A DNA stretch of 64,000 nucleotides from Streptomyces sp. SID14478 (GTDB lineage: Bacteria; Actinomycetota; Actinomycetes; Streptomycetales; Streptomycetaceae), in NCBI RefSeq assembly GCF_010548525.1, contig NZ_JAAGMG010001065.1, positions 1 to 64,000 on the forward strand, read 5' to 3'. The position numbers and the translations under genes are program-made. Below the pieces are notes generated by a model, which worked only from the letters and a program-made list of their open reading frames with translations, did no database searches and was not told the DNA's origin. Below are positions 12,797-16,575 of the stretch, piece by piece; the first letter of the stretch is position 1, and each line of letters begins with the position of its first letter.

Positions 12797-13558
12797 TTAG
12801 TAGGTGACCGCAGCCCAGACCCCGGCGGTGAGAACTGCCGCCACGTAGCAGCCGACCGCCGCATACATGACGCGCTCCTTGGTGCGTTCGCCCCACGCCG
12901 TACGGGACATGAACCAGGCCAGGACCGGAAGCACGAGCACGGCGTGCAGGCTCACGCCGTGCAACGGCTTCAAGGCGGCTGTCGAGTGGTACGCCGCCTC
13001 CTGGTGACCCGTTCTCGTGAGGACGACGCCGCGCGCGATCATCGCCGCGCCGGACGCGAGCGCGACCAGAAGGGCGGCGAAACCCGCCCGTACGGCGAGG
13101 GACATCCCTGTAGGACCGCTCGGACGGTTCCTGAAGGAGGCGACGGCGAAGGCCGTCAGGAGTACCACCAGGATGCCGCCGCCCACGGCGAGGGACATGG
13201 AGACCACGGTGTTGAAGGCGCTCTCCATGTTGAGATGCGAGGGGACCTTGCGCCATGCCTGGAGCGTGATGCCACCGACCTCAAGCACACAGTCCGCCGC
13301 GAACACGACGAGCAGGACGGTACGCACCCGGGCACGCACTTGTAGATACGAGGTCACCCAGGTCAGAGCCATCAGCGTCAGCCCGAAGGAGAGCCCGAAG
13401 GTGAACGGCTTTCGCCAGGAGACAGGGCCGTCCCACGGGCCGCCGTCGATCCCGAGGACGGCGAGATGAACGAGCCCGGACGCGACCAGGGCGACACCGG
13501 TCGCGTAACACAGGCGCTCGGCGGGGCGAGCGGTGTGCCCGACCATCAGGATCTCCAT
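12797..13558 (-). CDS. Conserved membrane protein of unknown function (7-TM)
   Basis: A 253-residue protein with about seven hydrophobic segments: LCYATGVALVASGLVHLAVL, then a loop containing GPWDGPVSWRKPFTFGLSFG, AVGGGILVVLLTAFAV, AGFAALLVALASGAAMIARG, SLHAVLVLPVLAWFM and a last segment, AAVGCYVAAVLTAGVW. A histidine in HSTAALKPLHGVSLHA could bind metal or haem, but no family is recognised. ATG 13558 has GGAGG 8 nt upstream. It is convergent with the AI-2E gene, with only 21 nt between the stops. Confidence 0.75.
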   Translation of the reverse strand: MEILMVGHTARPAERLCYATGVALVASGLVHLAVLGIDGGPWDGPVSWRKPFTFGLSFGLTLMALTWVTSYLQVRARVRTVLLVVFAADCVLEVGGITLQAWRKVPSHLNMESAFNTVVSMSLAVGGGILVVLLTAFAVASFRNRPSGPTGMSLAVRAGFAALLVALASGAAMIARGVVLTRTGHQEAAYHSTAALKPLHGVSLHAVLVLPVLAWFMSRTAWGERTKERVMYAAVGCYVAAVLTAGVWAAVTY

Positions 13559-13653
13559 GCCTCGAGCCTCCCCGGGCCGGACCGCGCCGTCGTCGTCCGG
13601 CCGAAGACACCCTGTGTACGGCGAGGGGAGTACGGCCCCGCGCGCCCTCGACC

Positions 13654-13685
13654 TTGACCTTGACGTACGGGTCAGGGGTTAGCGT
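13654..13685 (+). promoter_or_regulatory. MerR-type promoter-operator with 20-bp spacer
   Basis: The -35 TTGACC (13654-13659) and -10 TAGCGT (13680-13685) are separated by 20 bp, the long spacing used by MerR activators. Inside the spacer, CCTTGAC (13658-13664) and GTCAGGG (13671-13677) form an inverted repeat with one mismatch. A MerR gene lies downstream in the same transcription direction. Confidence 0.55.
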
Positions 13686-13744
13686 CACCGCACTCCGGCG
13701 GCGACGGGCCGCCGGACCCGTCCGCGTCCGACCGGAGGCCGACC

Positions 13745-14810
13745 ATGACCGCACCTCTGCCCGCGACCGCCCGCCAGATCCGGCTCGCCGCCGTTCCCCA
13801 GGGGCTGCCCGCGCCGGAACACTTCAGCGTCGTCGAGGAGCCGCTCGCGACACCCGGAGGGGGCCAGGTCCTGGTCAGGAACCGGCACTTCCTGGTCTTC
13901 CCCGGACTGCGCACCCTGATAGGCGGGGAGACGAACGAGGTGCCGATGCCCCAACTGCACCGCGGGGACGCACTGTTCGGCCCCGCGGTCGGCGAGGTGG
14001 TGGCCGCGCCCGCGGACGGACCGCTGCGCACCGGCGACCTGGTGACCCACATGCTCGGCTGGCGCGAGTACGCCTCGGTGGACGCCGCCGCGTGCGTTCC
14101 GCTGGACGGCGCGCTGCCCGACCCGATCGCTTCCCTCTCCCCGGGGTCGGCCGCCTACGGGGCGCTGACCCGTCTCGCCGGCGTAGGCCCGGGCGACGTC
14201 GTGCTGGTCACCGGAGCGGCGGGAGCAGTGGGGTCCCTCGCGGGGCAGATCGCCCGACTGCTGGGCGCCCAGAAGGTCATCGGCAGCACCGGGTCGCGGG
14301 CGAAGGCGGAGCGGCTGGTCGCCGAACTCGGCTACGACGCGGTCGTGCTGCGGGGCGCGGGACCGTTCGCCGACCAGCTCGCCGAGGCGGCGCCCGAAGG
14401 AATCGACGTCCTGGTGGACAACGTCGCGGGGGAACAGCTCGCGGCGGCGCTCGGCGCGGCCCGGCAGGGTGCGCGGTTCGCGCTGATCGGCGCGCTGTCG
14501 GGGCAGCTGGCGGCCGACCGGGCCGGTGGCAGCGCCCCCGTGGAGATCGACGCCTACCGCCTCGTGGTCAAGAGCATCTCGCTGCGCGGGTACAACGGCG
14601 TGGACCATCCCGAGGTCGAGAAGGAGTGGCACGGCCGGTTCGGGGACTGGCTGCGCTCGGGTGGGATCGTCTTCCCCCACGAGCGGATCGCGGGGATCGA
14701 CCGCGCACCGCAGGCGTTGCGGGACGATCGCGGGGATCGACCGCGCACCGCAGGCGTTGCGGGACATGATGGAAGGCAGGTACTTCGGGGCTGTCGTCGT
14801 GGACGTCTAG
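13745..14810 (+). pseudogene. CurA-type NADP-dependent oxidoreductase, frameshifted by 40-nt duplication
   Basis: Medium-chain dehydrogenase/reductase lacking zinc, of the curcumin/prostaglandin reductase type. The Rossmann motif VLVTGAAGAVGSLAGQIARL is near residue 157, with SISLRGYNGVDHPE near residue 278. An exact 40-nt tandem duplication (14686-14725 and 14726-14765) shifts the frame. Removing one copy restores a 341-residue protein ending MMEGRYFGAVVVDV at 14810, the normal family length. As printed, the open frame instead runs to 15175 with unrelated residues across the merR gene (476 residues in all). It may be a real mutation, a reversible slip or a sequencing/assembly error. It has GAGG before ATG 13745, a MerR-type promoter upstream and the merR gene 41 nt downstream. 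Confidence 0.85.
14686..14765 (+). repeat. Exact 40-nt tandem duplication, two copies
   Basis: Bases 14686-14725 are repeated without mismatch at 14726-14765, beginning GATCGCGGGGATCGACCGCG. Because 40 is not a multiple of three, the duplication breaks the reading frame of the oxidoreductase. Confidence 0.97.
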
Positions 14811-14850
14811 CCGTCACGTCCAACCGTCACGGCAGGGGGAGTGGAGCGGT

Positions 14851-15222
14851 ATGCGGATCGGCGAGGCGGCCGCTGCGGCCGGGACCACTCCTCGGGCGCT
14901 GCGGTTCTACGAGCAGCGCGGACTGTTGCCCCCGCCCGTGCGCACCGCCTCCGGCCAGCGCGAGTACGGCTCCGCTGAGATCGCTCAGGTCCGCGTCATC
15001 CGTGATCTGCTGGCCCTGGGACTCACCGTCGAGGACCTGCGCGGCAGCGCGGACCGGCTGCCGCTGCTCGCCCAGGAGTCGCCGCCACGGTGTGCCGCCT
15101 TCGAGCGCGACGCCGGTAGTTCCTCGGTCGTCGGCCGCCGGCTCGCCGCTCTCGACGCCGAGATCGACCGGCTGATCGGGCTGCGAGAGAGCCTCGCCCG
15201 ACGGGCCCGCGGGGACGGGTGA
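14851..15222 (+). CDS. MerR-family transcriptional regulator
   Basis: A 123-residue regulator. The winged helix-turn-helix is at the N-terminus (MRIGEAAAAAGTTPRALRFY, then EQRGLLPPPVRT), followed by the YGSAEIAQVRVIRDLLALGL segment and a C-terminal dimer helix (VVGRRLAALDAEIDRLIGLR). A lone cysteine (RCAAFERD) is present, but there is no metal-binding cysteine cluster. ATG 14851 has GGGGGAGTGGAG upstream. It probably forms an operon with the preceding reductase and acts at the dyad in the 20-bp spacer at 13654-13685. Confidence 0.88.
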   Translation: MRIGEAAAAAGTTPRALRFYEQRGLLPPPVRTASGQREYGSAEIAQVRVIRDLLALGLTVEDLRGSADRLPLLAQESPPRCAAFERDAGSSSVVGRRLAALDAEIDRLIGLRESLARRARGDG

Positions 15223-15251
15223 CCGCGGGTACTCCGTTCCGCGTGGTGCGC

Positions 15252-15280
15252 TTGACACCAAAATCGAACATCCATTCTTA
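15252..15280 (+). promoter_or_regulatory. recA SOS promoter with LexA box
   Basis: A TTGACA -35 (15252-15257) is followed 17 nt later by TTCTTA (15275-15280). The SOS box TCGAACATCCATTC (15264-15277) fills the spacer, so LexA bound there would block polymerase. The box matches the actinobacterial TCGAAC-N4-GTTCGA type in its left half and partly in its right half. Confidence 0.8.
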
Positions 15281-15384
15281 TGGGATGTCCAGGGGCGCTT
15301 TTCCCAGGAATCCCAAGGGATCCATGAAGAGTGACCGGGCGAAGAGCCTCGAGTTATCCACAGGCGGACGGGCGTCGAGGCCGA

Positions 15385-15407
15385 TTGTCAGTGGCAGGCG
15401 TTAGCGT
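15385..15407 (+). promoter_or_regulatory. recA RecA-NDp (PafBC-type) promoter
   Basis: TTGTCAGTG (15385-15393), an 8-nt spacer and TAGCGT (15402-15407) match tTGTCRgtg-N8-TAnnnT in full. In mycobacteria this LexA-independent promoter drives most recA induction through PafBC. It is the second recA promoter, 44 nt before the ATG. Confidence 0.8.
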
Positions 15408-15450
15408 CTTTGACGTGAAGCGATCGACTCAAGCAAATCGGGTGGAACCC

Positions 15451-16575
15451 ATGGCAGGAACCGACCGCGAGAAGGCGCTCGACGCCGCGCTCGCACAGAT
15501 TGAACGGCAATTCGGCAAGGGCGCGGTCATGCGCATGGGAGAGCGGCCGAACGAACCCATCGAGGTGATCTCCACCGGGTCGACCGCGCTCGACGTCGCG
15601 CTCGGCGTCGGCGGCATCCCGCGCGGCCGCGTGGTGGAGGTCTACGGCCCGGAGTCCTCCGGTAAGACGACCCTGACCCTGCACGCAGTGGCCAACGCAC
15701 AGCGGGCCGGCGGTTCGGTGGCGTTCATCGACGCCGAGCACGCCCTCGACCCCGAGTACGCCAAGAAGCTCGGCGTCGACATCGACAACCTGATCCTGTC
15801 GCAGCCGGACAACGGCGAGCAGGCTCTCGAGATCGTCGACATGCTGGTCCGCTCCGGCGCCCTCGACCTGATCGTCATCGACTCCGTCGCCGCGCTCGTG
15901 CCGCGTGCGGAGATCGAGGGCGAGATGGGTGACTCGCACGTGGGTCTGCAGGCCCGCCTGATGAGCCAGGCCCTGCGGAAGATCACCAGCGCGCTCAACC
16001 AGTCCAAGACCACCGCGATCTTCATCAACCAGCTCCGCGAGAAGATCGGCGTGATGTTCGGCTCGCCGGAGACCACGACCGGTGGCCGCGCGCTGAAGTT
16101 CTACGCCTCCGTGCGCATGGACATCCGCCGCATCGAGACCCTGAAGGACGGCACGGACGCGGTGGGCAACCGCACCCGCGTCAAGGTCGTCAAGAACAAG
16201 GTCGCGCCGCCCTTCAAGCAGGCCGAGTTCGACATCCTCTACGGGCAGGGCATCTCCCGCGAGGGCGGCCTGATCGACATGGGCGTGGAGCACGGCTTCG
16301 TCCGCAAGGCCGGCGCCTGGTACACGTACGAGGGCGACCAGCTCGGCCAGGGCAAGGAGAACGCGCGTAACTTCCTGAAGGACAACCCCGACCTGGCCAA
16401 CGAGATCGAGAAGAAGATCAAGGAGAAGCTGGGCGTCGGTGTCCGTCCGGCGGAGGAGCCGGCCGCCGAGCCGACCGTGGACGCGGCGGCTGCCGTTGCC
16501 CCCGTCGAGGACGCGGCCAAGACGGTACCCGCACCCAAGGCGGCCAAGTCCAAGGCCACGGCGGCCAAGAGCTAG
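15451..16575 (+). CDS. recA: Recombinase RecA
   Basis: A 374-residue RecA, the DNA strand-exchange ATPase that also stimulates LexA self-cleavage. Walker A GPESSGKT is at residues 66-73, Walker [21 protein letters not shown] near residue 145, the L1/L2 region includes [20 protein letters not shown] near residue 195, and [19 protein letters not shown] follows. The C-terminal tail is Ala/Lys-rich, as is usual in Streptomyces RecA. ATG 15451 has GGTGGAA upstream. Two promoters (SOS and RecA-NDp type) precede it. recX follows 3 nt after the stop, so the two are co-transcribed. Confidence 0.98.

Follow-up and report, generated by a model that had tools for sequence, protein, structure and literature searches.

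An exact 40-nt tandem duplication breaks the reading frame of a CurA-type reductase gene next to merR in a Streptomyces draft assembly

We have found that the curA gene of Streptomyces sp. SID14478, as assembled, is interrupted by an exact 40-nt tandem duplication. Most likely this is an ordinary recent knockout or a slip in the assembly, and not an evolved on/off switch; the gene affected encodes the enzyme of an accessory operon. A loss-of-function allele of curA that is recent and private to the strain is the reading to which we give slightly better than even weight. The features on which the analysis rests are listed below; positions are those of the window, that is, the whole 64,000-nt stretch of DNA that was analysed.

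13653–13686, plus strand: MerR-type promoter/operator consisting of TTGACC, a 20-nt spacer with a dyad, and TAGCGT (conserved across loci)
13745–14725, plus strand: curA codons 1–327, in frame (Pfam ADH_N_2 and ADH_zinc_N; CurA the best NCBIfam profile but below its cut-off; dN/dS)
14686–14725, plus strand: copy 1 of the 40-nt unit (sequence)
14726–14765, plus strand: copy 2, identical to copy 1 and shifting the frame (sequence)
14726–15175, plus strand: shifted frame of 149 codons and a stop, ending within merR (ORF 13745–15175)
14766–14810, plus strand: former 3' end of curA including the stop codon, displaced to a different frame (ORF 14526–14810, ending in ...MMEGRYFGAVVVDV; resembles the C-termini of relatives)
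14851–15222, plus strand: merR, an intact MerR-family regulator of 123 residues (Pfam MerR_1, 3.3e-19)

The duplication and the curA reading frame

Inspection of the window confirmed the two identical, adjacent 40-mers at 14686–14725 and 14726–14765 that a preliminary description of this DNA had reported. The run of matches is exactly 40 bases long, with GAGCG preceding the first copy, ATGATGG trailing the second and no extension on either side, so that no microhomology is left at the borders of the duplication. The 64-kb window has no other exact tandem duplication with a period of 15–999, and the length of this one rules out a chance repeat. No match was returned by an exact search with the 40-mer in a genome contig collection that may omit the window's own genome, and a protein search of the same collection returned only three loci.

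Since 40 is not a multiple of three, the curA frame shifts past codon 327. The open frame with the duplication runs from the ATG at 13745 to a stop at 15173–15175 (476 codons), and an unrelated tail that ends inside merR takes the place of the 14 C-terminal residues. The original terminus, MMEGRYFGAVVVDV, persists with its stop at 14810 in another frame. The gene thus lacks a complete open frame for a CurA, and the earlier claim that its reading frame is destroyed holds. The same description had the frame reading on through merR, which is slightly overstated: the frame does enter merR, but it stops inside that gene, which extends to 15222. With a single copy of the unit, curA would by arithmetic encode 341 residues, as had been proposed, and this is the length of the intact CurA of the relative G098.

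The assignment to the CurA type was borne out by Pfam domains, the best NCBIfam profile and solved relatives. Residues 1–327 contain ADH_N_2 followed by ADH_zinc_N, scoring 69.1 and 64.2 bits against cut-offs of 31 and 31.8, respectively. The best NCBIfam match of the same residues is the CurA profile NF058644 at 163.7 bits; as its cut-off is 440, we name the gene CurA-type only and do not transfer a substrate. Solved structures related to the product include 7e4d, 4b7c, 5zxu and 5zxn.

A 476-residue protein that is still active, with the longer frame coupling translation of curA to that of merR, could be imagined, as residues 1–327 are unchanged, the replacement affects no more than the final 14 and the shifted frame spans the merR start at 14851. 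Against this, the replaced C-terminus is conserved in relatives (GRHFGAVVVEL-like among the loci listed), the tail has no predicted structure and the duplication that creates it is missing from the 42 relatives readable at this place (below). The AlphaFold models, with mean pLDDT values of 55.6 and 45.4, are too poor to serve as evidence on the lost C-terminus, and the absence of structure in the tail is read from the poorer of the two (45.4). We regard an active fusion as extremely improbable.

CurA in related genomes

A search of 392 genomes of the genus with the whole region gave 95, the strain's own included, that match at E 1e-30 or better. We compared 44 relatives (43 from the same genus and one Actinomadura), taken mostly as best matches first and not as a random sample, using the intact CurA of one of them, G098 (341 residues), as reference. 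In 39 of them a single unbroken curA match reaches residue 339–341. The 40-nt duplication is absent from all 42 relatives that can be read at that site. The closest relatives found have 74–75% DNA identity over the region, and no strain of the same species is therefore part of the comparison.

In the other five relatives curA is broken by different lesions: the first part is missing and a stop is present in G012 (L131), the frame shifts at a run of seven G in G059 (L018) and at a seven-base unit in about three copies in G260 (L148), an in-frame stop is found in G149 (L016), and just a fragment lies in the examined DNA of G005 (L019). G260 has also lost the 3' end of the gene, replaced (L148 2570–3100) by sequence that, judged by eye, resembles an IS200/IS605-type TnpB gene. 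Some of these five lesions may be sequence errors. Breakage in 5 of 44 relatives makes curA look dispensable, and merR remains open despite the broken curA in G012, G059 and G149.

The merR gene, its promoter and the position of the operon

The product of merR has an N-terminal MerR helix-turn-helix (PF13411, 69.2 bits against a cut-off of 21.6). All 15 of the NCBIfam MerR-subfamily models listed, among them ZntR, CueR and NmlR, fall below their own cut-offs, the best being ZntR at 53.5 bits (cut-off 167.95), with NmlR at 34.6 (cut-off 175). A single Cys in the C-terminal part, read by eye, is common to 36 of the 37 aligned MerR proteins.

Upstream of curA lies a 34-base element, CTTGACCTTGACGTACGGGTCAGGGGTTAGCGTC (13653–13686), in which inspection identifies a predicted MerR-type site at 13654–13685 with a dyad and 20 nt between TTGACC and TAGCGT. 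A spacer of 19–20 bp is typical of MerR promoters according to the available part of a review (PMC9909328). Allowing up to two mismatches, 39 of 41 loci have the element; the consensus used was itself derived from the loci in which it was counted. The two loci that lack it (G017 and G086) have no merR visible in the examined DNA either; G102 and G260 have the promoter and no merR in the examined DNA, and in G176 merR is cut by a contig end. In the strain's own genome the element occurs once even when three mismatches are allowed (reversed control, zero). When no more than one mismatch is allowed, 22 of 150 genomes of the genus (the 150 include the strain's own) have a single site each (reversed control, none). 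Comparison of coordinates places a CurA match directly downstream of 21 of the 22. At the remaining one, G033:C23:247566–247595, the element has no listed CurA match nearby.

By these occurrences MerR seems to have one target promoter only, and the curA–merR operon has the look of a self-contained unit made up of a regulator, a promoter and a reductase, one of each. From the type of enzyme and the single Cys we infer that the operon may respond to an electrophile. Among the titles and beginnings of abstracts listed for this gene pair, none names a curA–merR operon.

In the stretch 12797–15451 of the window the pair lies between a minus-strand gene (12797–13558) and recA. G213 has the same minus-strand gene about 800 bases from recA without the pair between them, and the pair is likewise missing from 80 kb around recA in both G098 and G359 and from the 4-kb recA contig of G028. 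Each of these genomes carries the pair elsewhere, which shows it to be accessory in position and to have moved. As a by-product of modest value the analysis describes a compact MerR/promoter/reductase operon whose enzyme gene several relatives have lost; it offers an uncomplicated setting in which to ask which signal the regulator detects and why cells can do without the enzyme.

Age of the lesion

The identity of the two copies bounds the age of the duplication only weakly; by our own arithmetic, zero differences in 40 sites permits up to ~ 7% divergence between copies at 95%. For the six sequences listed of the eleven given, dN/dS of curA is 0.24–0.31 between the window and five intact relatives and 0.20–0.28 among those relatives, so that constraint in the window is similar to, or slightly weaker than, that among intact genes. 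The promoter of the window is identical to that of G028 in 34 of 34 bases. An intact promoter is no proof of an intact gene, as two of the broken relatives, G059 and G260, have an unaltered −10 region and zero mismatches to the consensus; the −10 region is altered in G012 and G149.

Promoter, merR and codons 1–327 all look functional, indicating that the lesion is either recent or artefactual, in agreement with the preliminary description. We conclude that it postdates the split from G028 (dS about 0.49), or is not real.

Real allele or assembly artefact

The duplication could have been created in the assembly if two ends overlapping by 40 nt were joined with the overlap kept twice, in which case the true curA would be single-copy and intact. 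The assembly is a draft of 1499 contigs, and the repeat has exactly two units with neither overhang nor microhomology, as an unmerged overlap would produce. A gene that otherwise looks functional and a repeat missing from all 42 readable relatives are also what such an error would give.

We scanned ~ 0.99 Mb of the strain's own assembly for tandem repeats (the 64-kb window with stretches of 478 and 446 kb, ~ 11% of the genome). Exact duplications with a period of at least 30 number two, the one in curA and another with a 38-nt unit in 2.4 copies, and a general habit of the assembler of doubling overlaps is not supported. The non-masked stretches of the assembly that were examined contain no runs of N. 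In 364 kb from relatives there are four exact duplications: three with units of 63, 35 and 36 nt, and in G012 (L174) a match of 39 nt inside an array of 13-nt repeats. The 35-nt duplication in G213 likewise has no overhang and occurs in a record of two contigs, a point against an artefact.

The duplications of 38, 63, 35 and 36 nt are located at L104 9838–9929, L161 15182–15322, L162 3640–3709 and L168 8195–8279, respectively. Checked for their surroundings, these four lie outside coding-like ORFs, and in a sample as small as this one a duplication inside a gene is therefore unusual. Three stretches around broken relatives (L177–L179) were scanned for repeats only.

A generally low sequence quality of the window is not supported: comparison with three relatives, covering 37, 47 and 43 kb, gave seven candidate frame switches, none of them convincing and all, in our reading, antisense or shadow frames or gene borders. 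The comparable parts showed no further recognisable broken gene.

The points that we weighed against a real allele are the 1499-contig draft, the lack of microhomology, the location within a gene and the slightly higher dN/dS. With the evidence on both sides, an assembly artefact is a serious candidate that we nevertheless place clearly below an even chance. A real allele of any kind, whether ordinary, a switch or a functional fusion, is rather probable, a judgement and not a computed value.

Reversibility and proposed mechanism

The preliminary description had suggested that the gene could switch off and on. In a contingency switch of this kind, slippage between one and two copies would toggle curA at a useful frequency. 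An exact tandem duplication can revert precisely, and the window shares with tandem-duplication phase variation an exact duplication that shifts the frame, here known in one state from one draft assembly. Precedents exist in pneumococcal capsule genes and in promoter repeats of Mycobacterium tuberculosis (PMC4022640 and PMC12817950, in the available parts of both papers). However, the unit is single in all 42 readable relatives, no flanking microhomology favours recurrence, and curA is an accessory gene of the detoxification type and does not encode a surface structure. Nor is there special folding at the site: the DNA fold z-score at 14660–14800 is −0.27, and no inverted repeat is present in 14600–14860. 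A hairpin-driven hotspot is likewise not supported by these values. What is left of the suggestion is a general property of exact tandem duplications, and on/off switching of curA is possible but unsupported; we consider an evolved contingency switch very unlikely.

A more elaborate form would make the duplication a reversible off-state of the whole operon, in which the enzyme is lost, ribosomes cross the merR start and lower the level of the regulator, and a return to one copy restores both. To this we attach an even smaller probability than to the simple switch.

We therefore return to the ordinary recent knockout as the preferred reading for a real allele. The 40-nt duplication would have arisen by replication slippage or end joining, and the altered protein would be inactive or unstable. 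MerR would govern the curA–merR promoter only, perhaps triggered by a reactive, electrophilic compound that would be the substrate of CurA. The duplication could be lost in the same way as it arose, as could any exact tandem duplication, with no evolved switch involved. No special function has to be invoked for the allele, given an accessory operon and the loss of its enzyme gene in several relatives. The finding matters mainly for annotation, which should flag the gene as frameshifted or doubtful in place of listing a 476-residue protein.

Comparison with known systems

The protein has the same two domains as the CurA-type NADPH-dependent double-bond reductases and aligns across residues 8–325 of 7e4d, but it differs from the reductases described by NF058644 in having lost its last 14 residues.

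Tandem duplications within pneumococcal capsule genes are reported to cause phase variation (Waite et al. 2001, 2003, as cited in the available part of PMC4022640). The shared feature is a spontaneous tandem duplication within an ORF that inactivates the gene and is revertible in principle. In the capsule genes, according to the same partial source, switching was observed in culture, whereas the window gives one state in one draft assembly, in the reductase of an accessory operon. A second system is that of M. tuberculosis Erdman, likewise an actinobacterium with repeat units of similar size, in which the copy number of promoter tandem repeats varies within populations (a 57-bp unit at dop; PMC12817950, available part). 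Those repeats act in promoters, whereas the one in the window breaks a coding frame and is known from one assembly.

As for the regulator, the MerR of the window scores below the NmlR cut-off and has its conserved Cys in the C-terminal part, but it shares with the NmlR/AdhR-like regulators of carbonyl stress, as far as the available part of the review describes them (PMC9909328), the MerR helix-turn-helix, a location near an oxidoreductase gene and a dyad in a 20-nt spacer.
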